From contig NCKB01000016.1 in the NCBI GenBank assembly GCA_002279065.1, forward strand, positions 1-62,522: 62,522 nucleotides of DNA, written 5' to 3'. Source of the stretch: Lysobacterales bacterium 15-68-25 (GTDB lineage: Bacteria > Pseudomonadota > Gammaproteobacteria > Xanthomonadales > Rhodanobacteraceae). The position numbers and the translations under genes are program-made. Positions 51,097-56,724 of the stretch are shown here, piece after piece. Every line of letters starts with the position of its first letter. Within the stretch, counting starts at the first letter, position 1. The notes beneath the pieces were generated by a model that saw only the letters and a program-made list of their open reading frames with translations, had not been told where the DNA came from and searched no databases.

Positions 51097-52851
51097 ATGA
51101 ACGATAGTGTGCTGAGCGGTCGGGCCAAGTTCAAGCAACTGCGGCATTTTGCGGTGGCCGGGGGGCTCGCGCTCGCCGCGGCCGGCTGCGCCGCGGTCCG
51201 GCCGGGCGGGGCGGTCCAGGCGCCCCGCGGCGAACCGCAGCCGTTGGCCCGCATGGTCGTGGCCACGCCGGACGCCGACCACGACGTGCTGGCGCAGTTG
51301 CTGGCCGCCGAGATGGCGCTGACCCATTCCGACCTCAAGACGGCTGCGGCCGGCTACGGCAAGGCGGCCCAGCTCTCCGGTGACGCCCAGGTGGCCGAGC
51401 GCGCCACCGAGCTGGCCTTGGCGGTCCATGACGATGCCGCCGCGGAGAAAGCGCTGGCGCGCTGGCAGGCGCTGGGCGCGCCAGCACCCGACCTCGCGCA
51501 GAGCCGTGCCCAGCTCGCACTCGATCGTGGGGACGCCGCCGAGGCCCGGAAGCAGCTCGAGCAGCTGATCGCGCTCGGCGGCCCGGACGCGTGGCGGCGC
51601 TTCGGGCGCGTGCTGGTCGGGGCGCGCGACTCCGCGCAGGCGGCCCGTCTGCTCGAGGCCATGGCCACGCCGGAACGCCTGCCCGATGACGAACGGGCCT
51701 GGCTGGCGATGAGCGAGCTGGGCGATCGGCTGGGGCGACGGGGCTACGCCCTGCGTATCGGCAAGGCCGCCGTGCAGCGGTTCCACACGCCGACCACTTA
51801 CGCCTGGACGGCGCAGATGATGCTCCGTTCCGGTGATCGCGCCGGAGCGAAGGACCTGCTGCACAGGGCGATCGTCGTCCACCCCGACGAGACGCGGCTG
51901 CGGCTGGCCTACGCCACCATGCTCGCGCAGGGAGGCGATTACCCGGCCGCGGCGAAATTCCTCGCGTCCGGCAAGCAGAGCGCGGACATCTACAACCTGC
52001 GCGCCGCGCTGGCGGCCAAGGCGAACGACCGCAAGACGCTGGCCATGCTGTACCGGCAGCTGAAGCAGTCCAGCCAGGACATTCGCGACGCCAGCGCCTT
52101 CCTGCTCGGCCAGCTGGCCGAGATGCAGGGCATGAAGCAGGAGGCGCTGGACTGGTACGACCAGGTCGGTGACGACGACCCGCACGCTTTCGACGCGGAC
52201 CTGCGCAGCGCGATCATCCTGCACCAGCAGGGCAAGCAGGCCGAGGCGCACGAGTTGCTGGGCCAGCTCGAGACCGCCTACCTCGACGAGCCCGGGCAAC
52301 TGCGTCGGGCCTACGAGGCGGATGCCGACCTGTACATGACCGAGCAGCGCTATCCGCAGGCCGAGGCCGCGTTCAGTCGGGCCTTGCAGGTGGTGCCGGA
52401 CGATCCCGGCCTGCTCTACGGGCGCGGGCTGGCCTATGCCGAGTCGGGCAAGATCGACCTTGCCGTGGCCGACCTGCGCCGGCTGCTGCAGCTCAGGCCC
52501 AACGACGTCGATGCCAGCAACGCGCTGGGCTACACGCTGGCCGACGCCAACCGCGACCTGCCCGAGGCCGAAAGGCTGATCGAGCAGGCGCGCAAGGCCA
52601 AGCCCGACGATCCGGCGATCGCCGACTCCTGGGGCTGGCTGCAGTACCGGCTGGGCCACCTGGATCAGGCCGTCACGGTGCTGCGGCAGGCCTGGAAGCA
52701 GCGCCAGGACGCGGATGTCGGCGTGCATCTCGGCGAAGTGCTGTGGAAGAGCGGCCAGCATGACGAGGCAAACCACGTGTTCGACCAGGTACGCAAACTC
52801 GATCCGGGCAACGCCAGCCTGCGCGACACGCTGAAGCGACTGAAGCCATGA
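51097..52851 (+). CDS. TPR-repeat lipoprotein upstream of lolB
   Basis: 584 residues from the ATG at 51097 (an upstream ATG at 51067 adds ten residues). A long signal with the lipobox LAAAGC puts Cys31 as the lipidated residue. The rest is helical with about ten tetratricopeptide repeats, for example QAEAAFSRALQVVPDDPGLL and SNALGYTLADANRDLPEAER, ending in repeats typical of the TPR proteins paired with lolB in Xanthomonadales. Probably a periplasmic scaffold at the outer membrane; its clients are unknown. Overlaps lolB by ATGA. Confidence 0.85.
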   Translation: MNDSVLSGRAKFKQLRHFAVAGGLALAAAGCAAVRPGGAVQAPRGEPQPLARMVVATPDADHDVLAQLLAAEMALTHSDLKTAAAGYGKAAQLSGDAQVAERATELALAVHDDAAAEKALARWQALGAPAPDLAQSRAQLALDRGDAAEARKQLEQLIALGGPDAWRRFGRVLVGARDSAQAARLLEAMATPERLPDDERAWLAMSELGDRLGRRGYALRIGKAAVQRFHTPTTYAWTAQMMLRSGDRAGAKDLLHRAIVVHPDETRLRLAYATMLAQGGDYPAAAKFLASGKQSADIYNLRAALAAKANDRKTLAMLYRQLKQSSQDIRDASAFLLGQLAEMQGMKQEALDWYDQVGDDDPHAFDADLRSAIILHQQGKQAEAHELLGQLETAYLDEPGQLRRAYEADADLYMTEQRYPQAEAAFSRALQVVPDDPGLLYGRGLAYAESGKIDLAVADLRRLLQLRPNDVDASNALGYTLADANRDLPEAERLIEQARKAKPDDPAIADSWGWLQYRLGHLDQAVTVLRQAWKQRQDADVGVHLGEVLWKSGQHDEANHVFDQVRKLDPGNASLRDTLKRLKP

Positions 52852-53450
52852 GGGCCACCCGTTTCCTCGGTGGGCTGGTGGTTCTGGCCCTGCTCGCCGG
52901 TTGCGCTCCGGCCGTGCGGATGAAGGGCGACGCGGCGATGTACCGGGCCCAGCAGCAGCGCGAGCGCGCGCTGGCCGGCGCCGACCATTGGACATTGAAT
53001 GGCCGGCTGGGCGTGTCCGACGGCCACAACGGTGGCAGCGGCAGTCTGGAGTGGCACCAGGACGGCGATCATTACGACTTCCAGCTGCGGGCGCCGATCA
53101 CCGGCAAGAGTTTCCGTCTGACCGGCGGCCCAGGGGGCGCCCTGCTCGAAGGGCTGGAGGGCGGCCCGTTGCGCGGGCCGGATGCCGAGTCGCTGATGCG
53201 CAAGGCGCTGGGGTGGGAAATGCCCCTGTCCGACCTGCGCGCCTGGGTGCTCGGCCTGCGGGCCGACAGCGGTCCGGCGGAGCTGCGCTTCGGCGACGAT
53301 CAGCTGCCGTCACTGCTTCTGCAGGACGGATGGACGGTGGACTACCGGCGCTGGGACCAGAGTCGCCAGCCGGCACTTCCGGTGCAGATATTCGCGACCA
53401 AGCCGCCCTACAAGGTGCGACTTTTCATCGAGTCGTGGCAGCTGAAGTAG
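52848..53450 (+). CDS. lolB: Outer-membrane lipoprotein insertion factor LolB
   Basis: 200 residues. Lipobox LLAGC with Cys19. LolB takes lipoproteins from LolA and inserts them into the outer membrane. The mature part matches the family: HWTLNGRLGVSDGHNGGSGS, LEWHQDGDHYDFQLRAPITG, LMRKALGWEMPLSDLRAWVL, and the end VRLFIESWQLK. It precedes ispE, as in most gammaproteobacteria, and its expression is coupled to the TPR lipoprotein gene. Confidence 0.93.
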   Translation: MRATRFLGGLVVLALLAGCAPAVRMKGDAAMYRAQQQRERALAGADHWTLNGRLGVSDGHNGGSGSLEWHQDGDHYDFQLRAPITGKSFRLTGGPGGALLEGLEGGPLRGPDAESLMRKALGWEMPLSDLRAWVLGLRADSGPAELRFGDDQLPSLLLQDGWTVDYRRWDQSRQPALPVQIFATKPPYKVRLFIESWQLK

Positions 53451-53520
53451 CCCGAAGCAGTTAGGCTAACGGCCCCTTGCGGGCACCCGGGTGGGTGTCC
53501 GCGTCATCGCAAGAGCCGTC

Positions 53521-54924
53521 ATGACCGCAGTGATCGAGCGCGCCCGGCCGGACGAGGTCGAGGCGCTGTGCGCCATCGAGCGCGCTGCCGTGCAGCTGTT
53601 CCGTGGCCACCCGGCCTGGCGGGCCTATGCCGACATGGCGATTCCTCCGGAGCTGCTGTACGAGGCGATTGCCCGCGGCATGGTGTGGGTGGCGCGCCCC
53701 GGTGCGGGCGGCGAGCCGGTCGGCTTCGTCTGGCTGGACGACACCCTGCCGGGCGATGCCATCGGCATCGGCGAGCTGGATGTGTTGCCCGATCACGGGC
53801 GTCGCGGCATCGGTGCGGCCCTGCTCGAACATGCCTGCGACTGGTCGCGCGCAGCCGGTTATCGCCGGGTCGACCTGGGTACCCTGGCCGACGTGCCGTG
53901 GAACGCGCCGTTCTATGCCCGGCATGGCTTCGTCGTGGTGGACAAGAACGACCCGGCCTTCGCCTTCGCGCGCGACCGCGACCGCGAAAACGGCTTTCCC
54001 GACCGGCTCCGTGTGTTCATGAGCCGGCCGCTGCCGCCGCTTGATCCGGGCGAGTGGAGTGCATGGCCAGCGCCGGCCAAGCTCAACCTGTTCCTGCGCA
54101 TCACCGGGCGCCGGGAGGACGGCTACCACGAGTTGCAGACCGTGTTCCGGCTGCTGGACTGGGGCGACGAGGTGCGGCTGCGGGTGCGCGGGGATGGCGT
54201 CATCCATCGTGATCGCGACATCCCGGGGGTTCCCGCAGAGAGCGACCTCGTCGTGCGCGCCGCGCGCCTGCTGCAGGAGGTGAGCGGGTCCCGCCACGGG
54301 GCCGACATTGCTGTCGACAAGCGCATTCCGATGGGAGGAGGCCTGGGTGGCGGCAGTTCCGACGCGGCCACCGTGCTGGTGGCGCTGGATCATCTGTGGG
54401 GCACCGGGCTGGGCGAGGACGCGCTGGCCGAGCTCGGTCGCCGGTTGGGCGCCGACGTGCCGGTATTCGTGCGGGGGCGCTCGGCCTGGGCCGAGGGTAT
54501 CGGCGAGCGGCTGACGCCGGTCGAGCTGCCGCGGCGCCACTACGTGGTGCTCGACCCGCGCGAGCACGTGCCCACCGCGGCGCTGTTTCAAGCGCCTGAA
54601 TTGACACGAAATGCCCCCCGGGCGACAATTTCGTCCTTTGTTTCGGGCGAAACTGCCGAGAACGCTTTCGAGCCGGTCGTACGCGCACGACATCCGTGCG
54701 TGAACGAGGCGCTGGAATGGCTCGGCGGTTTCGGCCGGGCGAAACTCTCCGGAAGCGGCGGGTGCGTTTTTCTGGAAACGCCTTCGCTGACCCGGGCGCT
54801 GTCGATCGCCGCACGGTGTCCCGCGGCGTTTGGCGTCCAGGTGGCCGCCGGAGCGGATCGCTCGATGCTGCACCGTGCGCTGGACCGCCATCGCGGGGCG
54901 GCGCAGGCGAGGCATACAACGTAA
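53521..54924 (+). CDS. ispE: Fusion of a GNAT acetyltransferase domain with IspE (CDP-ME kinase)
   Basis: 467 residues from the ATG at 53521 (a GTG at 53491 is in frame). Residues 1-165 are a GNAT domain with the acetyl-CoA motif PDHGRRGIGAALLEHACD and a closing WNAPFYARHGFVVV. Residues about 180-467 are a complete IspE: PAPAKLNLFLRITGRREDGY, the GHMP ATP loop PMGGGLGGGSSDAATVLVAL, and KLSGSGGCVFLE. IspE phosphorylates CDP-methylerythritol in isoprenoid synthesis. No stop separates the parts. An in-frame ATG at 54019 could start a free 301-residue IspE, so both a fused and a separate product are possible. The tRNA(Gln) gene begins four bases after the stop. Confidence 0.9.
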   Translation: MTAVIERARPDEVEALCAIERAAVQLFRGHPAWRAYADMAIPPELLYEAIARGMVWVARPGAGGEPVGFVWLDDTLPGDAIGIGELDVLPDHGRRGIGAALLEHACDWSRAAGYRRVDLGTLADVPWNAPFYARHGFVVVDKNDPAFAFARDRDRENGFPDRLRVFMSRPLPPLDPGEWSAWPAPAKLNLFLRITGRREDGYHELQTVFRLLDWGDEVRLRVRGDGVIHRDRDIPGVPAESDLVVRAARLLQEVSGSRHGADIAVDKRIPMGGGLGGGSSDAATVLVALDHLWGTGLGEDALAELGRRLGADVPVFVRGRSAWAEGIGERLTPVELPRRHYVVLDPREHVPTAALFQAPELTRNAPRATISSFVSGETAENAFEPVVRARHPCVNEALEWLGGFGRAKLSGSGGCVFLETPSLTRALSIAARCPAAFGVQVAAGADRSMLHRALDRHRGAAQARHTT

Positions 54925-54927
54925 TAC

Positions 54928-55001
54928 TGGGGCGTCGCCAAGCTGGTTAAGGCACGGGATTTTGATTCCCGCATGCGCAGGTTCGAATCCTGCCGCCCCA
55001 G
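54928..55001 (+). tRNA. tRNA-Gln (TTG)
   Basis: Acceptor strands TGGGGCG and CGCCCCA pair fully. The anticodon loop TTTTGAT carries TTG, reading CAA/CAG. The T loop GGTTCGAATCC is canonical, and CCA is encoded at 55002-55004. It lies between ispE and prs, a known gammaproteobacterial order, and is probably cut out of the operon transcript. Confidence 0.97.
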
Positions 55002-55041
55002 CCACTCAAGCCAGGACCTTACAGGTCGAGAGGAATTGTCC

Positions 55042-56001
55042 GTGGACACGTCATCCAGCCCGATGCTCTTCACCGGCAACGCGCACCGTGCGCTCGCCGA
55101 GGACGTGGCACACCGTCTCGGCATCCCGCTGGGCAAGGCCCTCGTGGGCACCTTCAGCGACGGCGAGGTACAGATCGAGATCGAGGAGAACGTCCGCCGG
55201 CAGGAAGTGTTCGTGCTGCAGCCGACCGGTGCGCCGAGCGCGGAGAACCTGTTCGAGCTGCTGACCCTGGTCGACGCGCTCAAGCGCGCGTCCGCGTCCA
55301 GCGTGACGGCGGTGATCCCGTACTTCGGCTACGCCCGCCAAGACCGTCGCCCGCGTTCTGCGCGCGTGCCGATCACGGCGAAGATGGTGGCCAAGCTGAT
55401 CGGTACCGTCGGCGTGGACCGCGTGCTCACCGTCGACCTGCATGCCGACCAGATCCAGGGCTTCTTCGACATCCCGGTCGACAACGTCTACGCCTCGCCG
55501 ATCCTGCTGGCCGACATCTGGCGCAACTTCGCGATGGACGATCTGATCGTGGTCAGCCCGGACGTCGGCGGCGTGGTGCGCGCCCGCGCGCTGGCCAAGC
55601 GGCTGGACGACGCAGACCTGGCGATCATCGACAAGCGCCGTCCGAAGGCCAACGTGGCCACGGTGATGAACATCATCGGCGACGTCGACGGCAAGACCTG
55701 CGTGCTGGTGGACGACATCGTCGATACCGCCGGTACGCTCTGCGCGGCCGCCGCGGCGCTGAAGGAGCGCGGCGCGCGCAAGGTGGTGGCGTATTGCGTG
55801 CACCCGGTGCTGTCCGGCGCGGCGATCCGCAACGTGGAAGGCTCGCAGCTGGACCAGCTGGTGGTCACCAACACGCTGCCGCTGCGCCCCGAGGCGCAGG
55901 CCTGCGCGAAGATCCGCCAGCTCTCGGTCGCCGAGCTGCTGGCCGAGACGATCCGCCGCATCGCCTTCGGCGAGTCGGTGAGCTCGCTGTACGTGGATTG
56001 A
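55042..56001 (+). CDS. prs: Ribose-phosphate pyrophosphokinase
   Basis: 319 residues from a GTG at 55042 ([20 protein letters not shown]) with AGAGGA upstream. It makes PRPP from ribose 5-phosphate and ATP for nucleotide, His and Trp synthesis. Motifs: [37 protein letters not shown] (the flexible ATP loop), [18 protein letters not shown], and the PRPP loop [15 protein letters not shown]. Length is normal. Follows tRNA(Gln), precedes rplY. Confidence 0.96.
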
Positions 56002-56079
56002 TCCGATTTCCGACTTCCCTGGTCGCGGGGAAGTCACCCTGCCGCCGCAAGGCGGCATTCCCAACCCAAGGTGTAAACC

Positions 56080-56724
56080 ATGTCTCAGACCCATGAAATC
56101 AAGGCCGAGAGCCGCAAGGACGAGGGGAAAGGTGCGAGCCGCCGCCTGCGTCGTGCGTCGTACGTGCCGGCCGTCGTCTACGGTGGCAAGCTGCCGCCGC
56201 AGAGCATCCAGATCGAGCACAACACCATCCTGCTCGCTGCCAAGCACGAGTGGTTCTTCTCCTCGGTGCTCGACCTGAACATCGACGGCGCCGTGCAGAA
56301 GGTGCTGGTGCGCGACTGGCAGAAGCATCCGTACAAGCAGCAGATGCTGCACATGGACTTCCTGCGCATCGACGAGAACGCCGCCGTGCGCGTCAGCGTG
56401 CCGCTGCACTTCCTGAACCAGGAGAAGTCCCCGGCCGGCAAGACCTCCGGCGTGGTGGTCTCGCACAACCTGACCGAGCTGGAAGTGTCCTGCCTGCCGA
56501 AGGACCTGCCGGAGTTCGTCGAGATCGATCTGGCCGACCTGAAGCCGGGCCAGATCATCCACCTGTCGCAGATCAAGCTGCCGAAGGGCGTGGAGATCCC
56601 GGCCCTGTCGCTGGGTGCCGATCACGACATCGCCGTCGTCACCGCCAACACGGTGAAGGAAGAGGTCGAAGAGACCCCGGCCGCCGCCGAAGGCGAAGAG
56701 AAGCCGGCTGGCGACAAGAAGTAA
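56080..56724 (+). CDS. rplY: 50S ribosomal protein L25, long CTC-type
   Basis: 214 residues, the long form with a C-terminal TL5/CTC domain. It binds 5S rRNA. The N-terminal RNA-binding part has AESRKDEGKGASRRLRRASY and VPAVVYGGKLPPQSIQIEH; the CTC domain contains VSCLPKDLPEFVEIDLADLK and IHLSQIKLPKGVEIPAL. The tail is acidic and Lys-rich (EGEEKPAGDKK). The prs-rplY-pth-ychF order is standard. Confidence 0.96.
   Translation: MSQTHEIKAESRKDEGKGASRRLRRASYVPAVVYGGKLPPQSIQIEHNTILLAAKHEWFFSSVLDLNIDGAVQKVLVRDWQKHPYKQQMLHMDFLRIDENAAVRVSVPLHFLNQEKSPAGKTSGVVVSHNLTELEVSCLPKDLPEFVEIDLADLKPGQIIHLSQIKLPKGVEIPALSLGADHDIAVVTANTVKEEVEETPAAAEGEEKPAGDKK

Follow-up and report, generated by a model that had tools for sequence, protein, structure and literature searches.

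The window, the whole stretch of 62,522 nucleotides analysed here (Lysobacterales bacterium 15-68-25, contig NCKB01000016.1), carries between lolB and prs a gene in which a GNAT acetyltransferase and the CDP-ME kinase IspE are read as a single frame. The features of the locus are as follows.

52848 to 53450, plus strand: lolB, the upstream neighbour (PF03550, 138 bits), which adjoins the GNAT/ispE locus in most loci fetched
53521 to 54036, plus strand: GNAT acetyltransferase half, residues about 1-172 (PF00583 and PF13508 above cut-off)
54019 to 54021, plus strand: in-frame ATG (M167), the proposed restart, apparently a structural part of GNAT within its last strand
54037 to 54063, plus strand: linker, residues 173-181, short and variable in sequence when junctions are compared
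54064 to 54924, plus strand: IspE half, residues 182-467 and the stop codon TAA (TIGR00154, 248.7 bits)
54328 to 54363, plus strand: GHMP glycine-rich motif PMGGGLGGGSSD, residues 270-281, (nearly) invariant in 42 fused proteins and gone from seven relatives without IspG
54601 to 54629, plus strand: predicted sigma70-type promoter, TTGACA-17 nt-GACAAT, within ispE codons 361-370 (ELTR...TI), 10 of 12 positions matching
54928 to 55004, plus strand: tRNA-Gln with TTG anticodon (ARAGORN; Rfam tRNA, 62.2 bits)
55042 to 56001, plus strand: prs, ribose-phosphate pyrophosphokinase (PF13793, PF14572, PF00156), its GTG start assumed from relatives

The frame at 53521-54924 comprises 467 codons and a TAA, and has no internal stop. 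Its first half matches PF00583 with 51.2 bits (Pfam cut-off 20.7) over residues 47-137, both GHMP kinase domains are also recognized by Pfam, and residues 181-454 match the NCBIfam ispE profile TIGR00154 with 248.7 bits against a cut-off of 138.7, a result that is not decisive by itself because six relatives lacking the glycine-rich motif pass as well. The GNAT half contains DVPWNAPFY and, at residues 93-101, the acetyl-CoA motif GRRGIGAAL, which fits the GNAT pattern R/Q-x-x-G-x-G/A; G93, G96 and G98 of the motif are invariant across 42 proteins. IspE proper starts at about W182-P183 and carries PMGGGLGGGSSD together with K187 and D312, the catalytic Lys and Asp of the GHMP kinase half, all of them (nearly) invariant in 42 proteins. 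An AlphaFold model based on the alignment of 42 fused proteins has a mean pLDDT of 82.8, with means of at least 86 in every ten-residue block of residues 1-170 and low confidence in three IspE loops (272-276, 319-332 and 371-378). The original prediction, that a single frame holds both GNAT and IspE in intact form, is borne out by the profiles and the open frame; the GNAT domain is indeed complete, and the border drawn at residue 165 has to move to about residue 172, because GNAT-only relatives stop at 173-174 aa. An Rfam search of 53300-56100 for RNA elements found nothing besides the tRNA.

The ATG at 54019 had been proposed as a point at which translation could restart. In the model M167 lies inside the strand formed by residues 164-170; it is ATG in all 69 loci compared and is also kept in the GNAT-only proteins. 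The median Shine-Dalgarno energy at M167 is -3.2, no better than the -4.0 of random internal codons; the prs start has -6.1, but the GNAT start is itself weak (-3.5), so the test has little power. No other start codon in residues 168-183 is common to more than 14 of the 69 loci. One locus, L012, was excluded from this set and from the codon-constraint scan described below.

This GNAT is present in 143 of 233 genomes of the family (E 3.4e-48 or better), representing 17 of 26 genera. Examination of 87 of the 143 GNAT-bearing loci (the 30 best matches and 57 picked for genus coverage) showed GNAT reading through to IspE without a stop in 81, among them L012, which ends at a contig edge before the IspE C-terminus; all six exceptions belong to one genus, g7. 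The same domain pair that the original prediction advised seeking in relatives is thus found in frame, and it extends to three other genomes of the window's own genus (Dyella ginsengisoli LA-4, G064; Dyella lutea, G065; and G066), where the read-through frame is the same and each half is 88-92% identical. In a set that overlaps the 87 loci, the best 80 named of 415 related stretches, GNAT and IspE share a frame in 75 and IspE is missing in five, all Dyella. Genus g7 is another Dyella genus, which includes the species flagellata, choica, nitratireducens, monticola, acidisoli, flava, lipolytica and others.

Outside the fusion clade, ispE is a free gene after lolB, with no GNAT match, in 21 of 21 loci fetched, which agrees with the earlier assumption that IspE is normally free at this locus. 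The lolB stop lies 17-83 nt ahead of the conserved ispE start region in such loci, and a separate GNAT gene between lolB and ispE, which would represent an evolutionary intermediate, was seen in none of the 21 when they were searched with the window's GNAT (E 1e-6). A tree built by a quick method from lolB and part of prs (89 rows) explains the distribution of GNAT with one change, on a branch with SH-aLRT 98. A recent loss of a stop codon, one origin that had been suggested for the fusion, is contradicted by its presence in 17 of 26 genera and by this single inferred change. At the level of sequence comparison the fusion is real and old: the GNAT frame appears to have entered the lolB-ispE interval once, in the ancestor of most Rhodanobacteraceae, a family of soil bacteria, and it stays in frame with ispE in the relatives that have IspG.

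Among the matches listed in a gene-order search of 398 genomes, none outside the window's family covered the GNAT half, which is no proof of absence. In a sample of the class, 3 of 273 other genomes match the GNAT at E 1e-12, all with free frames of 178-187 aa, and two genomes of fusion-free genera (G139 and G213) carry a GNAT 39% identical to the window's; these standalone matches were considered as donors and no donor is named. Two genomes of fusion genera have no strong GNAT match. One, G166, has IspG and no IspE over the cut-off, so that its lolB-GNAT-ispE locus is probably missing from the assembly; the other, G199 (1.5 Mb, 85% complete), matches neither GNAT nor IspG and is taken as an incomplete genome.

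The fate of the two halves can be compared where the MEP pathway appears to have been replaced. Four enzymes of the MEP and mevalonate pathways were searched for: IspE, IspG, Dxr and HMG-CoA reductase. In the window's genome IspG and Dxr both exceed their cut-offs, and HMG-CoA reductase gives no match; family-wide, IspG is matched in 196 and HMG-CoA reductase is found in 44 of the 233 genomes. All 16 g7 genomes and one Rhodanobacter MAG (G198) have HMG-CoA reductase without an IspG match. GNAT motifs are present in each of these 17 genomes. Their IspE is deleted in five, broken in one (a remnant in G079, of g7), stripped of its glycine-rich kinase motif within an open frame in seven (six g7 genomes and G198), and near intact in four (G074, G078, G080 and G082, with G078 most changed). 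The five deletions, all in g7, have the order lolB-GNAT-tRNA-Gln-prs and group together on the tree (support 83), and the GNAT-only proteins end just past the last GNAT strand, at 173 aa in the deletion clade and 174 aa in G079. In IspDF, both halves of the fusion serve the MEP pathway; a pathway-coupled pattern of that type is not what is seen here, where GNAT is intact in 17 of 17 genomes and IspE is lost, broken or motif-dead in 13 of 17 (G199 being left out).

That the seven motif-dead IspE are inactive we infer from the lost motif alone, because six of them still pass the TIGR00154 cut-off (144-181 bits; G198 scores 130.6) and that of G067, the one scanned, passes the Pfam GHMP cut-offs. 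The possibility that g7 genomes hold another ispE away from the locus was considered and rejected: all off-locus TIGR00154 matches score 48 bits or less, below cut-off. Among them are a 362-aa type that also matches in the window's genome and a short type in frames sized and placed like the HMG-CoA reductase frame. HMG-CoA reductase alone does not go with IspE decay. Ten Rhodanobacter (g22) genomes have both HMG-CoA reductase and IspG, and possibly both isoprenoid pathways (G148, G152, G155, G167, G171, G173, G175, G180, G191 and G192); in the five of these that are in the set (G148, G155, G180, G191 and G192) IspE remains 77-81% identical to the window's.

Several other observations were made in these genomes. 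Dxr passes its cut-off in one of the 17 (G074), falls short of it in six, in one of which it is split in two, and is not found in ten; within g7 the tally is one over cut-off, five below, one split and nine not found, with no Dxr found in G198 either, and this resembles a snapshot of MEP-pathway loss. In G079, L143:1441-3717 encodes an HMG-CoA reductase fused to a GHMP kinase domain (759 aa), beside a 372-aa GHMP protein. The G082 contig, L171 (17783 bases), is titled 'Candidatus Eremiobacteraeota bacterium' but has the Dyella lolB-GNAT::IspE-prs arrangement, and the title looks wrong. G005 (g2), which has HMG-CoA reductase, has an IspG match (C14:1665-2702) that is shorter and scores higher (455 bits) than that of any relative listed, and is perhaps foreign DNA.

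Selection on the two halves was estimated as omega by maximum likelihood in IQ-TREE for four chosen groups of 6, 4, 8 and 6 genomes. Values for GNAT, the IspE N-terminal part and the IspE C-terminal part are 0.083, 0.267 and 0.135 in six motif-dead g7 genomes; 0.092, 0.129 and 0.151 in the four near-intact g7 genomes; and, in two groups from genera that use IspE, 0.067, 0.040 and 0.125 in eight Luteibacter genomes (g16) and 0.027, 0.051 and 0.146 in six genomes of g6. Pairwise estimates, for which synonymous sites are near saturation in the motif-dead group, give 0.097 for GNAT and 0.269 for the N-terminal part in that group, and 0.229 and 0.263 in g23, where IspG is present. The GNAT half is thus under purifying selection with or without a sound IspE. 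Since GNAT is intact where IspE is deleted, broken or stripped of its motif, it seems to have a role that needs neither IspE nor the MEP pathway. The idea that the fusion links isoprenoid flux to acetylation is argued against by this independence in g7 and G198, where IspG is not matched: purifying selection on GNAT persists there as IspE degenerates or disappears. The IspE half may itself have some value outside the MEP pathway, because four g7 genomes keep it near intact without IspG (omega 0.129) and the dead frames stay open.

The seven motif-dead frames contain no stop codons, against 3.0-5.2 expected in each if all missense changes relative to G074 were neutral, an expectation that is an upper bound because even in lineages that use IspE, 39-61 of about 173 N-terminal positions are unlike those of G074.

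A third element of the locus lies within the kinase codons. The promoter-like sequence at 54601-54629 is the sole such site in 53400-55100, where 0.1 with 10 of 12 matches would be expected, and its codons are conserved at the level of DNA. TTG encodes the Leu of the motif in all 70 fusion loci outside g7/G198, 10 of 10 g7 loci with the motif in frame, the one G198 locus, all 17 standalone loci of the family and all 3 loci of other families in which the motif was found (a fourth reads GLTR). The Thr codon is ACA in 68 of 70, 10 of 10, 1 of 1, 17 of 17 and 1 of 3 of these, respectively; as related loci, they are not independent. Usage of TTG and ACA is 12% and 2.6% in lolB, GNAT and prs of the same loci, and 4.3% and 6.9% in eight window genes. 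Constraint on codon choice is highest at residues 351-380, and in six groups synonymous divergence drops from 0.41-1.40 in the N-terminal part to 0.02-0.24 at residues 361-376. Codon constraint peaks again, less strongly, at 54742-54756 (residues 408-412, CTT TCC ... AGC at L-S-G-S), with no promoter-like or Rfam match.

The promoter site also outlives the gene that contains it (loci L034, L036, L038, L042, L043, L244-L249, L251, L253 and L255-L258). It is kept in all five IspE-deleted g7 genomes, where the stretch that holds it is the recognizable ispE remnant. In fusion-free genera with HMG-CoA reductase and no ispE at the locus, TTGAC-18 nt-[GC]ACAAT lies between lolB and tRNA-Gln in 12 of 12 genomes; these 12 come from 16 genomes of two genera, the others being set aside for want of a prs match (G012) or upstream DNA (G005 and G011) or because ispE is present (G040). 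In G009 the sole ispE match left covers query residues 170-194, which is the promoter stretch. The embedded site is predicted to be a promoter and probably drives tRNA-Gln and prs.

Taken as a whole, the locus is probably best explained as encoding a conserved two-domain protein with two separable functions, and the evidence suggests that the two halves do separate jobs. The product would be a single 467-residue chain made from the start at 53521, although the weak Shine-Dalgarno match of the GNAT start counts against this explanation. Its IspE half would carry out the ordinary fourth step of the MEP pathway, the ATP-dependent phosphorylation of CDP-ME, and its GNAT half would transfer an acetyl group from acetyl-CoA to an acceptor outside that pathway, most likely a small amine or a peptide amino group. 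The halves are probably held together by expression and not by a shared reaction: because ispE directly follows lolB outside the clade, an inserted GNAT that reads through would keep IspE in step with the operon with no start site of its own. Where IspE is no longer needed, owing to a mevalonate pathway, selection on its half of the protein would relax, and a dead tail would be tolerated or trimmed at the domain border; tRNA-Gln and prs downstream would have their own promoter inside ispE.

Other readings of the locus have to be set against this one. That the frame results from an error of sequencing or assembly, or from a stop codon lost recently in a single strain, deserves almost no credence, as the same frame occurs in 81 of 87 loci, in many genera and in several single-contig assemblies; its recurrence there and in G064-G066 makes a sequencing artefact in particular very unlikely. 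If instead one frame gave two products, the full-length fusion and a free IspE from an internal start, the ATG at 54019 in 69 of 69 loci would be accounted for. However, M167 belongs to the GNAT fold and is kept where no IspE follows, its Shine-Dalgarno match is no better than that of random codons (on what is a weak test), and residues 168-183 offer no widely shared alternative start; the restart that the original prediction allowed for is poorly favoured by these results, and two products are unlikely. It is decidedly unlikely, too, that the protein is a functionally coupled enzyme whose GNAT half adjusts isoprenoid flux to the supply of acetyl-CoA by acetylating IspE or a MEP metabolite. 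In favour of this are the age and conservation of the fusion and the intact state of both domains in relatives other than g7 and G198. Against it, 16 Dyella genomes and one Rhodanobacter MAG with no IspG match retain GNAT, five of them without IspE at the locus, and the g7 groups tested show purifying selection on it; a regulator of flux would be expected to degenerate along with its pathway if it had no second role.

A further reading concerns only the Dyella that use the mevalonate pathway, in which a kinase-dead IspE may have turned into a structural or regulatory tail of the acetyltransferase. It would account for the seven motif-dead frames that remain open when stops might be expected, for the omega of 0.135 in the C-terminal part in the motif-dead group, and for the fact that both early-ending losses cut at the domain border, with mid-domain truncation in none of the 17 genomes. 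Against it, GNAT stands alone in five species, the stop expectation is an upper bound, and the C-terminal part has a low dS as well (0.58; N-terminal part 1.40), so that some of the pattern can be put down to constraint on the DNA itself close to the embedded promoter. Selection against misfolded partial tails would by itself produce the same pattern, and some motif-dead IspE may still be active, since they pass the profile cut-off. Either the IspE tail is useful or partial tails are harmful. Co-option of the IspE half after the swap from MEP to mevalonate, as a kinase-dead tail whose frame is under selection, would be a case of a pseudokinase arising through pathway replacement and preserved only through fusion to a needed gene; it is a tentative suggestion, and on balance a doubtful one.

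With the two-domain protein of separable functions as the preferred explanation, the locus bears on more general points. Gene fusions are often taken as a sign of a shared pathway, and the GNAT-IspE fusion is a counter-example, because in part of the clade the pathway was apparently replaced, the partner stayed and the enzyme decayed. An ispE-like frame in Dyella that passes a profile cut-off is accordingly no evidence of a working MEP pathway. The embedded promoter illustrates how a downstream operon can hold codons of another gene fixed and survive the loss of that gene. Neither the two domain families nor fusion as a process is new; the pairing itself and the natural experiment among relatives were not found in the open-access literature searched (most subscription journals lie outside its scope), nor was mention there of the ispE-internal promoter, and the available portions of PMC10663253 and PMC7591250 mention neither the fusion nor that promoter. 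What seems new at the promoter is the site, its freezing of codons and its survival of ispE loss, an ispE-internal prs promoter being of a known kind, as the E. coli comparison below indicates.

The closest solved relative of the GNAT half is the Pseudomonas aeruginosa GNAT PA2271 (PDB 9cr5; profile E 1.1e-27), on which the window's GNAT model superimposes with a TM-score of 0.87 by target at 34% identity, DVPWNAPFY being present in both. PA2271 is a chain of 174 residues with no kinase fusion, unlike the window's protein, and the literature search found no paper on it as an acetyltransferase. The IspE half resembles the free IspE of E. coli and K. pneumoniae (1oj4 and 8ckh; TM 0.85-0.86 by target, 48-50% identity). 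Among fusions, IspDF, named in PMC10663253, is a bifunctional protein in which a MEP-pathway enzyme is joined to another enzyme; the window's fusion differs from it in that the partner, GNAT, outlives the loss of the pathway. E. coli shares with the window the gene order lolB-ispE-prs, but its IspE has no GNAT, and no tRNA gene is annotated between ispE and prs in the stretch read, where the window has tRNA-Gln. The prs promoter P2 of E. coli reportedly lies inside ispE (ychB) and gives a 302-nt leader; a promoter-like site in E. coli ispE at L260:1883-1912 would give a leader of about 302 nt (0.6 such sites are expected by chance), and its agreement with the P2 distance is why the ispE-internal prs promoter is regarded as a known kind. 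E. coli P2 and the predicted site in the window are thus alike in placing a prs promoter within the ispE coding sequence. They differ in that the E. coli site is nearer the 3' end of ispE and occupies different codons, the window's hexamers being absent at that strain's ELPR codons, and in that the window, unlike E. coli, has tRNA-Gln between the promoter site and prs.
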